Positions 8,377 through 36,290 of a stretch of 55,937 nucleotides of DNA are shown here, in pieces. Source of the stretch: Candidatus Stahliibacteriota bacterium (GTDB taxonomy: Bacteria > Hydrothermota > Tepidihabitantia > SM23-42); the NCBI GenBank assembly GCA_030602565.1, contig JAUVZL010000011.1:1-55937 (forward strand), in the 5' to 3' direction. Positions within the stretch are counted from its first letter, which is position 1. Each line of letters starts with the position of its first letter. The translations under genes and the position numbers were made by a program. The notes under the pieces were generated by a model, which was given only the letters and a program-made list of their open reading frames with translations, was not told the origin of the DNA and ran no database searches.

Positions 8377-8586
8377 CGCAGTATCGTTCCTACGGAACTT
8401 GCAGTATCATACCGACTTACGTCGGAATTCGCAGTATCACCCCGACCTTTGGTCGGGGTTCGCAGTATCGTTCAGATGATATCTGAACTCGCAACTAATT
8501 TTTTTAATCTGACGAGCGGAACGATCCTGCGAGCCGAAGGCGATTCTGCGTTTCCTGCGAGTCCCGAGTAATCGGGACGATACTGC
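8377..8586. repeat. Tandem variable-stem hairpin array, constant word GCAGTATC
   Basis: Between the convergent purL and protease genes, CGCAGTATC (or one-base variants) recurs at 8377, 8400, 8430 and 8461, with CGCA again at 8490. A different perfect hairpin sits between each pair: GTTCC/GGAAC, CCGAC/GTCGG, ACCCCGACC/GGTCGGGGT and GTTCAGAT/ATCTGAAC, with 3-4 nt loops. A mirror set follows in the opposite orientation: GATCCTGCG, GATTCTGCG, and GTCCCGA/TCGGGAC closed by GATACTGCG. Some of these hairpins may act as a bidirectional terminator, but the constant word and changing stems suggest a repeat family. Confidence 0.85.
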
Positions 8587-25214: not shown

Positions 25215-25413
25215 GAATCAATCTATCAATGTAGTTGTCCGATTTATCGGACAGGCACTTCTAATGTTCAATAAACCTGTCCTGTCTGTCTCGAGTATCG
25301 AGGGGAACATAATTGAAGAATTGAGCGACTACAATGATATGCTCAATAAATTGAGCGACTACAATGTCAATATTTTTATTGAATATCGTAAAAGGGATTT
25401 GATTTATGCGTAA
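25199..25413. repeat. ~200-bp insertion between parA and parB with hairpins and direct repeats
   Basis: TTGAATCATGCGTAA (25200-25214, end of parA) recurs as TTGATTTATGCGTAA (25399-25413, start of parB), 199 bp apart. Between them are a perfect hairpin TGTCCGA-ttta-TCGGACA (25236-25253), another CTCGA-gta-TCGAG (25290-25302), and an 18-bp direct repeat (25319-25336 and 25349-25366). The frame from the parA stop to parB stays open for 68 residues, but the product looks like translated repeats and I do not call it a gene. Confidence 0.65.
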
Positions 25414-32229: not shown

Positions 32230-34290
32230 ATGAAGAAATTTGCGTGTTTATTCATCAGTGTCATATTGATGATTTCTGCATGTACAAAAAAAGAAGAGAT
32301 GCTGACTGGTGAGCAGGGTGGTAAACTCGTTATTGGGACCACTGATCTGCCAGCCGTCATTTCACCACTTGCCCCATCTATGTTCGGTTCAAATGATATT
32401 CTTGATCTTCTTTTTATGCATCTCCATCGCATCGACCCTGAAACAGGTAAGATGAAGCCCGAACTAGCATCTTCTTGGGAGTTCTCTGAAGATCTGACTT
32501 CGATCACATATTATCTACGGACTGATGTGACATGGTGGGATGGTGAGCCAGTGACTGCCGCTGATGTATATTTTACCTATGAGAAGATGAATGACCCAAA
32601 AACGAACTATTCCAATATTGCCAGCCTGAGATTTATTGAGAACGTTGAGATTGTTGGACCTTATGCGATCAGATTCACATTTAACAAGATATACGCTGAT
32701 CTGCTCACTGATTCTGACATTATGGCGGTACCAAAACATATTTTTGAAAAAGCCGGCGCCGATTTTGGCACAAAAACTATTGTTGGCAACGGACCCTATA
32801 AAATAAAGGAGTGGATACCTGGATCAGGTCTTATCCTGATCTATAATGATGCATACTATCGTGGTCGGCCACCTTTAGATGAAATCTACATAACATACTA
32901 CGCTGATATCAACAAGATGATGAAGGATTTTTCTGCTGGTGATCTTGATTTGGTTTTCAATATTACACCTGCCCGGGCTAAAGAGCTTGCCAATAACAAG
33001 AACATTAAGGTCGATACAAAACCGGGTAATACGTTTACCTATATAGGGTGGAATTTCAATAATCAGCATCTGAAAAACAAAGAGATTCGTAAGGCACTGA
33101 CCATGGCGATTGACACGAAGCAAATTTTGAAAGAAGTTTTTGCTGGCATGGGTGCAATTTCGCTTGGACCATTGCCACCGTCATCATGGGGGTATAATGA
33201 AGGTGTTGAGCCAATTAAGCACAATCCACCTGAAGCAAAGAAGATACTTGAGAAGCTAGGCTTTGAGGATCGGAATCGTAATAAGATACTGGATATAGAC
33301 AGGAAGGATTTCACTCTAAACATAATCACCAATGTTGAAAACGCCGAAAGAGTAAAGATCCTTGAGCTGGTTGCTCAAGATCTAAAAGCCCTGGGTATTC
33401 GCGTCAATGCACGGACTCTGGATACCAGATCGTTTATTGAAGCCATTGTGAAGCGAGACTTTGATGGTTTTATTATGGGTTGGAGTGTGGGTGAAAAGAT
33501 CGATCCGACGGTTTATTGGTATTCAGACCCGGCAAAAGGGAGGTTCAATTTTGTTGGTTATAAGAATACGGTAGTTGATTCCCTTATTGACCTTGGTGTT
33601 GCTATGCTCAATAGGAAAAAAGCTGAAGAGATCTGGAATGAATTTCAAAGGGTTGTATATGAGGATATCCCCTATACCTTCCTCATTGTGGCTAATGATA
33701 TTTCAGCTTCATACAAGAGGGTCAAAGGTGCTGATCAAGGGTTTGTTTTAGCCAGTGCCTATACATATTGGATCCCTGAGGCAGAACGAAGGGTTGCGAT
33801 AGCTTCGCTTCCGCCAGCAGTCGATACAAGTACAACACCGACTGAAAAACCCGCAGAACCCAAAGCTGAGGTATCGAGCGAAAAACCACCAGAAATCGTC
33901 GCACCCGAAAAGCTCTTAGAGGCAGCTGCTAAGAGAGATACAGCGGCAATGTCTACAACATCCCCTGATACTGGAGCTGGAACCCCACCTATCACACCAC
34001 CTGAACCACCCAAACCATCAATTGTGACCAGGGTTACGATTACTAAACGGGTTCAACCAAGATACCCTGAAGCCGCGAAGGCAGTTGGTGCCGCAGGGAC
34101 GATTAACGTGCGCGTTGTTGTCGGTACGGATGGAAAAGTGAAGAGTGCAACCATTCTTTCCAGTTTTGGAAATCCAGCATGCGAAGCTGAAGCCTTGGCA
34201 GCAGCTAAGAAATGTGAATTCAAACCAGCAACCAAGGATGGAGTACCGTTCGAACAGAAGATAACAATTCCGTTTAAATTTAAACAATAA
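32230..34290 (+). CDS. Family 5 solute-binding lipoprotein fused to a TonB C-terminal domain
   Basis: Residues 1-17 are a lipoprotein signal with lipobox ISAC (C18). From about 30 to 525 the protein is a family 5 (DppA/OppA-type) extracellular solute-binding protein: SSWEFSEDLTSITYYLRTDVTWWDGEPVTAADV and VGNGPYKIKEW are typical. A Pro/Glu/Thr/Ala-rich linker (about 525-595) leads to a TonB C-terminal domain (VQPRYPEAAKAVGAAGTINV, then ILSSFGNPACEAEALAAAKK). I know of no standard role for this combination. It could be a periplasmic binding protein that contacts TonB boxes or other envelope partners. No ABC permease genes are adjacent. Confidence 0.87.
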   Translation: MKKFACLFISVILMISACTKKEEMLTGEQGGKLVIGTTDLPAVISPLAPSMFGSNDILDLLFMHLHRIDPETGKMKPELASSWEFSEDLTSITYYLRTDVTWWDGEPVTAADVYFTYEKMNDPKTNYSNIASLRFIENVEIVGPYAIRFTFNKIYADLLTDSDIMAVPKHIFEKAGADFGTKTIVGNGPYKIKEWIPGSGLILIYNDAYYRGRPPLDEIYITYYADINKMMKDFSAGDLDLVFNITPARAKELANNKNIKVDTKPGNTFTYIGWNFNNQHLKNKEIRKALTMAIDTKQILKEVFAGMGAISLGPLPPSSWGYNEGVEPIKHNPPEAKKILEKLGFEDRNRNKILDIDRKDFTLNIITNVENAERVKILELVAQDLKALGIRVNARTLDTRSFIEAIVKRDFDGFIMGWSVGEKIDPTVYWYSDPAKGRFNFVGYKNTVVDSLIDLGVAMLNRKKAEEIWNEFQRVVYEDIPYTFLIVANDISASYKRVKGADQGFVLASAYTYWIPEAERRVAIASLPPAVDTSTTPTEKPAEPKAEVSSEKPPEIVAPEKLLEAAAKRDTAAMSTTSPDTGAGTPPITPPEPPKPSIVTRVTITKRVQPRYPEAAKAVGAAGTINVRVVVGTDGKVKSATILSSFGNPACEAEALAAAKKCEFKPATKDGVPFEQKITIPFKFKQ

Positions 34291-34327: not shown

Positions 34328-34380
34328 GGGGCCTCTGCTTTATTTGATCTTCGCCCTCCGGTGGGGGCCCCCCATTTTTT
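34328..34380 (+). terminator. Probable transcription terminator
   Basis: A GC-rich dyad (GGGGCC at 34328-34333 pairing with GGCCCC around 34366-34371, plus GGGGG/CCCCC immediately before the run) is followed by ATTTTTT. A separate 7-bp hairpin, GGCAATC-gattct-GATTGCC (34299-34318), stands just after the stop without a T-run. Confidence 0.5.
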
Positions 34381-34406: not shown

Positions 34407-34755
34407 GAAATGATGCTAAGCATAGAAGAGATACTTCTTATGGAAATGACTGCTTCGCACTTGAAGGGATACTTCGTATGGAAATGAGTGTTACACAATG
34501 GAATGGACCCACGCACTTTTGCTGAAAGTGCGGGATGGAATTTAAATCGTAAATAGCATTAGTTTAGTTTCTTTGGTTTATTTAGGCATTTAGGCATTTT
34601 GGATTTTAGGTATTTATTTTTCTCCGTTTCACCGTTTCTTCCATACTCCGTTTCATATTCAATTCCAGCGCAGCTCCCTTCCAGCGTCAGCTCCTTTCCA
34701 GCACGTAGTGCTCTCTTCCAATCCGTTAGGATTCAAAGGTTCCAATTACTTAATT
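34407..34755. repeat. Two variable-stem hairpin arrays (constant words GGAAATGA and TTCC)
   Basis: No gene is present in the 491-base gap. From 34407 to 34542, copies of GGAAATGA/GGAATGGA separate ATGC/GCAT, AGAAG/CTTCT, ATAC/GTAT, GTG/CAC and CGCACTTT/AAAGTGCG. Four TTTAGG-like words occupy 34579-34612. From 34663 to 34755, TTCC precedes each of five hairpins: AGC-gca-GCT, AGC-gtca-GCT, AGCAC-gta-GTGCT, AATCC-gtta-GGATT and AATTA-ct-TAATT. Stems vary while pairing is kept. Confidence 0.82.
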
Positions 34756-34781
34756 ACTGTTTTTCTCAGTAACTGTCTGTT

Positions 34782-36290
34782 TTACCGTGGGGTCATGATC
34801 GTGAACGGTAGGATCATTTCCTCCATTGATATACCGCCATGCTGGAAAGTATACTTGAACTCTTTTTCATACTCGGTTGGCTTTGTTGGGTAGATGAAGT
34901 AATAATCCTCCTTGGCAATGGCGAATCTTACTGACGGATCATCGCTTGGCAGTGATATCTCTCCGGGATTATTCAGTAGCCACGCGGTTTTTTTGTCTAT
35001 TCTAAGCGCTGGACCGTACTTATATCGGAGATTGGGTGATATTGACCGGCCGCCATAGATAATGCTGGGACGGCGTACCCGGATGAAACCATGATCAGTA
35101 GTGAGGACGATGCGACAATCCTTTTTGGATATATTCTTGAGAAGCTCAAAGATTGGGGATATCGGGAACCAATAGCTCAGTAAATTAAGGAAAACCCGTT
35201 CGTCGTCTAACATCCCCTTCATGTTGCCGCGTCCTGGTATTGAATGAAGGATGAGGTCAAAGAAGTTGATTACGGTTATGCAGATGTCTGCTTTGTCATT
35301 GCTGATTCTTTGGAGGTTCCGTTCGATCTCTTGGATTGAGGATAATTTGTAGTATGAGAATTTCAAACGGAGGTTATGTCTCTTCAGTTGTTCGCTGAAC
35401 AGCTCTTTCTCAAATCGGTTCTGTCCTTTAGATTCGAAAGACCAGTATTGTGGTAATTTCTCCACGATCTCAAGGGGTAAAAGTCCGGCAAAAAGGGCAT
35501 TTCTTGAGTACGGTGTTGCGGTTGGCAGTATCGAGTAATAGAACTGTGTATTTATCTCAAAGAAGTCACGCAGATAAGGAGATATTTTGAAATACTGATC
35601 AAGCCTCATTGAGTCAAGAATGATAAGATGGAGCGGTCCATCTTTCAATATAGGGAAGACATAATTCGAAAAGAGGTTTTGGGACAATACTGGTCCCTTG
35701 CCTCTTATAAAGTCTGTGTATTGGGTTTCGATATATTTTGCAAATCCGGCATTGGCTTCTCTTTTTCGCTCTTCCTGTATTTCTTTGAGGCTTTTGTTGC
35801 CAAATTCAAGAAGTCGTAAATCCCACGATACAATCGTCCGGTAGTATTCCACCCATTCGTTATAGTTAGTAGGATCAGTATGAGTTCTGAACTGCGTGGC
35901 GTACTCTTCGTTCATTTTTTCAGCGATTATCACTCTTCGCTTCAGCGTACGATTCAAAACAGAAAGCAATTGATTGAAACTGAATGGTTTTGTAATATAG
36001 TCATCGACCCAACCGCCGTATGCTTTCTTCATGATATCTTCTTCTTCGCTTTTAGTAATCATCACCACCAACTGTTGCGAGTTCTCATTTTTTATCTTTC
36101 TCAGCACCTCCAGCCCATCGACGCCCGGCATAATTTCATCCAAGAAGATAAGATCAAACACTTCTTTACTGGCAAGGGTTGCACCATCTTCACCAGAAGA
36201 TGCCGTCTTCACTTCATAGCCTTCTTGTTCAAGAAGATATATGAATGGCTTTAACAGATCTATTTCATCATCTATCCACAAAATTTTCAT
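34782..36290 (-). CDS. porX: PorX-like response regulator with PglZ/alkaline-phosphatase-superfamily effector
   Basis: Residues 1-120 are a receiver domain (ILWIDDEID; phospho-acceptor Asp in IFLDEIMPG; Lys in YITKPFS). Residues about 200-500 are an alkaline-phosphatase/PglZ-type domain, with metal-site residues suggested by LDSMRLD, TATPYSRN, TTDHGF and FQHGGISMEEM. This architecture is that of PorX, the response regulator that controls type IX secretion in Bacteroidota, and two proteins here have type IX sorting domains. It overlaps the upstream histidine-kinase gene by 4 nt, so that kinase is the likely partner. 502 residues. Confidence 0.88.
   Translation of the reverse strand: MKILWIDDEIDLLKPFIYLLEQEGYEVKTASSGEDGATLASKEVFDLIFLDEIMPGVDGLEVLRKIKNENSQQLVVMITKSEEEDIMKKAYGGWVDDYITKPFSFNQLLSVLNRTLKRRVIIAEKMNEEYATQFRTHTDPTNYNEWVEYYRTIVSWDLRLLEFGNKSLKEIQEERKREANAGFAKYIETQYTDFIRGKGPVLSQNLFSNYVFPILKDGPLHLIILDSMRLDQYFKISPYLRDFFEINTQFYYSILPTATPYSRNALFAGLLPLEIVEKLPQYWSFESKGQNRFEKELFSEQLKRHNLRLKFSYYKLSSIQEIERNLQRISNDKADICITVINFFDLILHSIPGRGNMKGMLDDERVFLNLLSYWFPISPIFELLKNISKKDCRIVLTTDHGFIRVRRPSIIYGGRSISPNLRYKYGPALRIDKKTAWLLNNPGEISLPSDDPSVRFAIAKEDYYFIYPTKPTEYEKEFKYTFQHGGISMEEMILPFTIMTPR

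Follow-up and report, generated by a model that had tools for sequence, protein, structure and literature searches.

Strings of short TTCC-tagged hairpins in a Candidatus Stahliibacteriota genome look like an undescribed relative of REP repeats

REP-type palindromes are known from many phyla. They are defined by GTAG or CGTC tags, measure 20-40 bp with stems mostly of 6-9 bp (5-13), and occur singly or as head-head and tail-tail dimers, head-tail dimers being reported as absent or under-represented; the GTAG types accompany RAYTs, and dimers that join different stems have been argued to escape SbcCD clearance (PMC3733652). IHF, DNA polymerase I and gyrase are reported interaction partners of REP sequences (background of PMC6006769). 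At the ends of IS200/IS605 elements and in TnpA_REP guides, a guide tetranucleotide lies just 5' of a hairpin and is read as single-stranded DNA (PMC6006769). Furthermore, DNA hairpins of the d(cGNAg) type are unusually stable (PMC5815330; PMC10527192). For example, four base pairs and a GCA loop closed by C-G give a hairpin that melts near 69 C (PMC5815330), and for an extraordinarily stable hairpin with two base pairs in its stem the value given is 76.5 C (PMC10527192).

Here we describe an array of short hairpins in the window, by which is meant the whole 55,937-nt stretch of contig JAUVZL010000011.1 that was analysed, from an uncultured bacterium of the candidate phylum WOR-3. In our reading, whose chances seem about even, the array represents one half of a REP-like multi-hairpin repeat that is dispersed and non-coding, would fold as single-stranded DNA and is present here in a degenerate copy. 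Its right arm, on the forward strand, has four units in strict register, with 3 nt from each hairpin to the next TTCC: TTCC-AGCGCAGCT (34663-34675; AGC-GCA-GCT), TTCC-AGCGTCAGCT (34679-34692; AGC-GTCA-GCT), TTCC-AGCACGTAGTGCT (34696-34712; AGCAC-GTA-GTGCT) and TTCC-AATCCGTTAGGATT (34716-34733; AATCC-GTTA-GGATT). The first-pass annotation had reported five tandem TTCC-hairpins, and all five are perfectly paired at the positions it gave, five of the six TTCC words in 34601-34800 being followed by a perfect hairpin. As a tandem series the description fits units 1-4 with their fixed spacing and does not extend to the fifth hairpin, TTCC-AATTACTTAATT (34740-34755, forward strand; AATTA-CT-TAATT), which is out of register after a 6-nt gap (CAAAGG), forms part of a flanking TTACTTAATAACT-like or TTACTTAATAACTG-type word, and is a marginal member of the array. 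Nor do the stems share nothing, as had been stated, since the first three all start with AGC and end with GCT.

Two features had been missed: a second constant-word array at 8378-8488, discussed below, and the opposite arm at 34413-34540. This left arm consists of hairpin-GGAA units that read TTCC-hairpin on the reverse strand; its six hairpins (34413-34423, 34431-34441, 34449-34461, 34469-34479, 34487-34499 and 34507-34536) are each followed by GGAA or a variant, and because several carry a stem mismatch the arm is regarded as a decaying copy. The strandless stretch between the arms (34541-34662) contains TTTAGGCATTTAGG-like words and CTCCGTTTCACCG words; it spans about 10-35 nt in other copies of the element, and the window copy is split. 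Both arms sit in the gap between two convergent genes, assigned by eye: upstream, on the forward strand, a 686-aa ABC-type substrate-binding protein with a TonB-like C-terminus (32230-34290) and downstream, on the reverse strand, a 502-aa PorX-like protein with a response-regulator receiver and a PglZ-like C-terminal part (34782-36290). The single-copy sequence TCTTCGCCCTCCGGTGGGGGCC (34348-34369), downstream of the 686-aa gene, occurs without mismatch in 9 of 41 genomes, in the five inspected at the orthologous gap, while the remainder of the gap around it is not conserved; it may be a conserved terminator or RNA element.

Intergenic DNA rich in A+T often contains short stems, and chance or base composition was weighed as the source of the array. 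The shuffling test that the earlier reading had proposed places the array beyond chance: dinucleotide shuffles of 34601-34800 averaged 0.107 hairpin-bearing TTCC words and had at most three, and none of 5000 reached five. When the word was left free, the 200-nt bin 34601-34800 was still the maximum of the whole window. In a sample of five genomes, about 800 kb in all, TTCC leads all 256 tetramers as a hairpin-framing word, and 133 of 468 TTCC-x-NNN-TTCC segments hold a perfect hairpin (29 distinct hairpins) against a background near 1%. Similarly, 147 genomes of the phylum were searched for the pattern TTCC-A-stem-GNA-stem-T-NNN-TTCCA, with pairing not required; of the 78 matches listed from beyond the genus and G016, 19 were perfectly paired, where 0.88 would be expected. 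On the shuffles and the all-tetramer scan the chance reading was rejected, and it is scarcely credible.

The element of which the window array is one half is dispersed, intergenic and about 190-210 nt long, and is laid out as two opposed arms of around four mini-hairpins each. Head-tail runs of three to four hairpins predominate, and two such runs face each other. The unit format is TTCC, a hairpin (A...T), exactly 3 nt and the next TTCC, with TTCT as a variant of the word; a typical unit measures 13-19 nt including the tag, with a stem of 3-6 bp and a loop of 3-5 nt, and 300 of 314 chained units have a spacer of exactly 3 nt, in a count that overlapping loci enter repeatedly. Strings of four species align as a single repeat, whose left arm (reverse strand) carries ATGCnnnGCAT, ATACGAAGTAT, AGTGYGAARCACT and ATTCGAAGAAT, whose centre takes up about 12-35 nt, and whose right arm carries AGCACGCAGTGCT or AGCGCAGCT at position 1, AGCGTCAGCT or AGCCTATGGCT at position 2, AGCACGTAGTGCT or a longer ATCCC...GGGAT hairpin at position 3, and AATCCGTTAGGATT or AATCCCCTTGGGATT at position 4. 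As these strings align position by position, the variety of stems within one array is mostly inherited: positions of the dispersed element carry characteristic hairpins. Plain tandem duplication, which had been set aside as giving identical units, does occur as well. In G013, 14 TTCC/TTCT units alternating ATGCCTCGCAT and AGCGCAGCT (L183, 434-670) mark the recent expansion, in tandem, of a block of two hairpins.

Genome-wide counts are based on BLAST and pattern searches, plus sampled stretches. The element has 32 (G000), 29, 24 and 14 BLAST matches in four genomes of the genus, four in G016 and one in G013, with no BLAST match in 35 other relatives. Constant word-hairpin strings, for which the first-pass annotation had suggested scanning the genome and its relatives, recur in the genome, the genus and wider WOR-3. 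A scan of genome contigs with one specific unit as query found matches in WOR-3/Stahlbacteria only; the commonest unit had no match in viral contigs, on which ground a virus-borne origin was rejected. Within G000, one 41-kb contig (C48; L021) has far more TTCC strings than the other sampled stretches.

Turnover of the strings is rapid among close relatives. The orthologous gaps of G003 (about 95% identical), G002 and G001 all lack the window array, and at another site G003 and G002 bear strings in place of which G000 has 82 nt of different sequence. Since other repeats fill the orthologous gaps, neither a clean empty site nor a target-site duplication was found there. A comparison of L136 (10281-11680) with L021 (17201-18500) shows intergenic repeats ending just before TTGAC promoter-like sequences, the gap content being replaced between species and the presumed promoter conserved. 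Across a larger distance, element copies of G001 and G016 are 89% identical against about 70% for genes of the same pair, which points to recent transfer or strong constraint. The 19 perfectly paired matches outside the genus and G016 comprise 14 distinct stems in six genomes, and G025, from another family of the same order, has a two-arm 4+4 string whose hairpins are all different. Judged from these sequences, the TTCC format is older than its stems.

How the stems change was followed in a collection of units for which pairing was not required. Most stem variants within arrays are either compensatory double changes that restore Watson-Crick pairing or G.T pairs, and loops vary freely. For example, two paralogous strings in G054 differ by AGCC/GGCT to AACC/GGTT (AGCCGCAGGCT and AACCGAAGGTT). 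Distinct G.T and A.C variants number 7 and 1 among in-array units (hand sorting), 5 and 3 outside the genus and G016, and 12 and 4 when pooled (p = 0.04); this wobble bias, although weak, suggests that the TTCC strand is the folded strand. Moreover, whole hairpins are exchanged. Copies in G001 have AGCACGCAGTGCT or ATCCCGAGCAAGTCGAGGGAT between identical CCT-TTCC and CTC-TTCC and are otherwise identical around the position, and at another place ATCCCTCGACTTGCTCGGGAT stands for AGTGTTTCACACT between identical GGAAATG and GGAATGG. In G054, ATCCTGAGCGAAGTCGAAGGGT replaces AGCACGAAGTGCT with the TAC spacer kept, and a fourth copy lacks one entire unit. Stems thus do change as whole units between copies, as had been asked, by exact hairpin swaps with flanking spacers unchanged in two lineages. 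The proposal that either selection for pairing or a writing mechanism was at work divides accordingly: selection is well supported by the compensatory double changes, the wobbles, the free loops and the other stems of other WOR-3 families, whereas a mechanism that writes new palindromes at a fixed word was not demonstrated.

A purely mutational account would have template switching at quasi-palindromes, together with microhomology (TTCCA), correct, copy and swap hairpins during replication, with no selection involved. Hairpins replaced whole at TTCC(A)...(T)NNN junctions, their spacers intact, are in line with it, as are the tandemly duplicated unit pairs of G013 and the same habit at several other words. 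It does not explain, however, why GNA/GNNA loops lie on one strand or why the intermediates are G.T and not A.C, and loop letters vary while stems covary. This account is unlikely to be right.

The loops bear more directly on which molecule folds. GNA loops occur in 31 of the 47 distinct triloop hairpins found in chains and TNC loops in none, compared with about 6.5% per strand for such loops in background hairpins; as the 47 sequences are not entirely independent of one another, the p-value of this contrast is nominal. Most units use the loops and closing pair of the extra-stable mini-hairpins d(cGNAg) and d(GCGAAGC), which are known mainly from biophysics and aptamers and are here recurrent in genomic strings; the loop pattern is a signature of such DNA hairpins. 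GNA/GNNA loops are present in both arms, each on its own TTCC strand, and since the arms lie on opposite strands, DNA folding fits better than one transcript. ViennaRNA energies with DNA or RNA parameters show almost no difference between strands; to our knowledge, these parameters carry no GNA triloop bonus. In several copies the predicted minimum free energy structure is a rod in which the arms pair with each other. The hairpins need not be the sole functional fold, as the arms can, on this modelling, pair as a long rod. As the main explanation the rod was rejected, because strings with a single detected arm (L081, G011) keep the word and format.

An element acting at the RNA level, with transcribed hairpins serving as terminators, mRNA-end protectors or a protein sponge, would also select for pairing and could make use of G.T wobbles. 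All 38 classified strings are intergenic, and 11 of them (29%) occupy convergent gaps, as the window copy does, compared with 54 of 373 background gaps (14%). Nevertheless, a single transcript has just one of the arms in TTCC orientation although both arms have the same GNA loops, many strings lie in tandem or divergent gaps, orthologous gaps occur without strings, and 4-bp AT-rich units are predicted at about 0 kcal/mol as RNA. An RNA-level role is distinctly improbable. An Rfam search returned no family above the gathering threshold, and a known RNA family was rejected on this basis.

Other words show the same habit. The second, independent window array (8378-8488, reverse strand) combines CGCAGTATC with four different perfect hairpins, GTTCCTACGGAAC, ATACCGACTTACGTCGGAAT, ACCCCGACCTTTGGTCGGGGT and GTTCAGATGATATCTGAAC, with stems of 5-9 bp; read on the reverse strand, its word is GATACTGCGA and its loops include GTA and GTAA. 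The array lies 26 kb from the TTCC array, and similar units are found in G016 (L146). Further formats are AACC/TACC/TCCC with a hairpin and 3 nt, and GTGTCTTCA with a hairpin. In sampled stretches (L004 1300-1540; L066 1-200; L136 10281-11680 and 17601-18800), GTGTCTTCA strings and AACC/TACC/TCCC strings with a G...C hairpin and CAT also have GNA/GNNA loops.

Conventional systems are present alongside. Genomes of the genus and G016 have 5-13 Y1_Tnp genes each, and some RAYT genes are flanked by GTGG, GTAG or GGAG hairpins with varied stems, as conventional RAYT/REP systems. At 25231-25362 the window has opposed GTAGT-tagged hairpins (GTAGTTGTCCGATTTATCGGACA ... CTCAATAAATTGAGCGACTAC), a conventional REPIN-like pair, and similar GTAGT-tagged hairpins flank the RAYT of contig C31 in G000. 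Around 73 RAYT loci in eleven genomes no TTCC string was found within about 1.5-3 kb, bar two more than 2 kb away, nor does the number of RAYTs follow the occurrence of the strings: G017, with 12 RAYTs, has no pattern match. As none of the 73 loci adjoins a TTCC string, RAYT was rejected as the cognate enzyme.

Compared with REP, SMAG, BIME and REPIN sequences (PMC3733652), the TTCC strings share short palindromes with a constant unpaired tetranucleotide at the foot and sub-families with alternative complementary stem residues; they are likewise extragenic, dispersed in many copies (14-32 BLAST matches per genus genome) and opposed in orientation. REPs favour heterodimers with different stems, and TTCC strings also join different stems. 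They differ in the tag (TTCC with TTCT variants rather than GTAG/CGTC or GTRG), in stems of 3-6 bp rather than mostly 6-9 bp, in running head-to-tail with about four different hairpins at fixed 3-nt spacing, in exchanging whole hairpins within a string and, compared with GTAG REPs and their REPtrons, in having no RAYT beside them. CGTC REPs are tagged palindromes also without a known dedicated transposase (PMC3733652), although tag and organisation differ. Because tag, stem length, head-tail order and RAYT linkage depart from the definition, the strings are not filed as REP members; on the best reading, by analogy, they would work like REPs and look like an undescribed relative. TTCC is placed like the guide of IS200/IS605 ends and TnpA_REP (PMC6006769), yet the strings have no transposase gene, cleavage site or IS boundary identified. 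CRISPR arrays similarly alternate a constant word with variable segments, but their repeats are 24-48 bp with regular non-repetitive spacers, whereas here the word is 4-7 nt and the variable parts are 9-30 nt, far shorter, and self-complementary.

The constant word and spacing, and the reported interactions of REPs with IHF, DNA polymerase I and gyrase, could also suit arrays of double-stranded binding sites for a nucleoid or gyrase-like protein, the word being the site. A double-stranded DNA reader of TTCC needs neither perfectly paired, ever-changing stems nor GNA loops, and this explanation is very improbable.

On the favoured reading of a REP-like repeat, the TTCC strand would fold as single-stranded DNA during replication or repair, in REP fashion, and at every hairpin TTCC would serve as unpaired foot or guide word to a putative ssDNA-processing enzyme that may copy or move the elements and swap their hairpins. 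The elements are then best read as non-autonomous. Stems would be kept short and mutually different since palindromes with the same sequence would slip out or make up long perfect inverted repeats; the argued escape of REP dimers with different stems from SbcCD clearance (PMC3733652) suggests a reason for the differences within strings. A bolder and rather doubtful extension treats the mini-hairpins as cassettes: an ssDNA activity in WOR-3 would read the linker word and the fold, with its stable GNA-type loop, rather than the stem letters, and would insert, remove and replace whole hairpins. If so, strings with different linkers (TTCC, AACC/TACC, GTGTCTTCA, GATACTGCGA) would accumulate interchangeable hairpins.

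To summarize, a format of word, loop type and spacing is kept across the phylum while compensatory changes and exchanges of whole hairpins renew the stems, with several steps of this turnover visible among paralogues of one genome. This makes selection on a DNA fold and a palindrome-writing mechanism directly testable against each other. The pattern points to a putative ssDNA-processing activity in WOR-3 and bears on how new stem sequences may arise under one tag.
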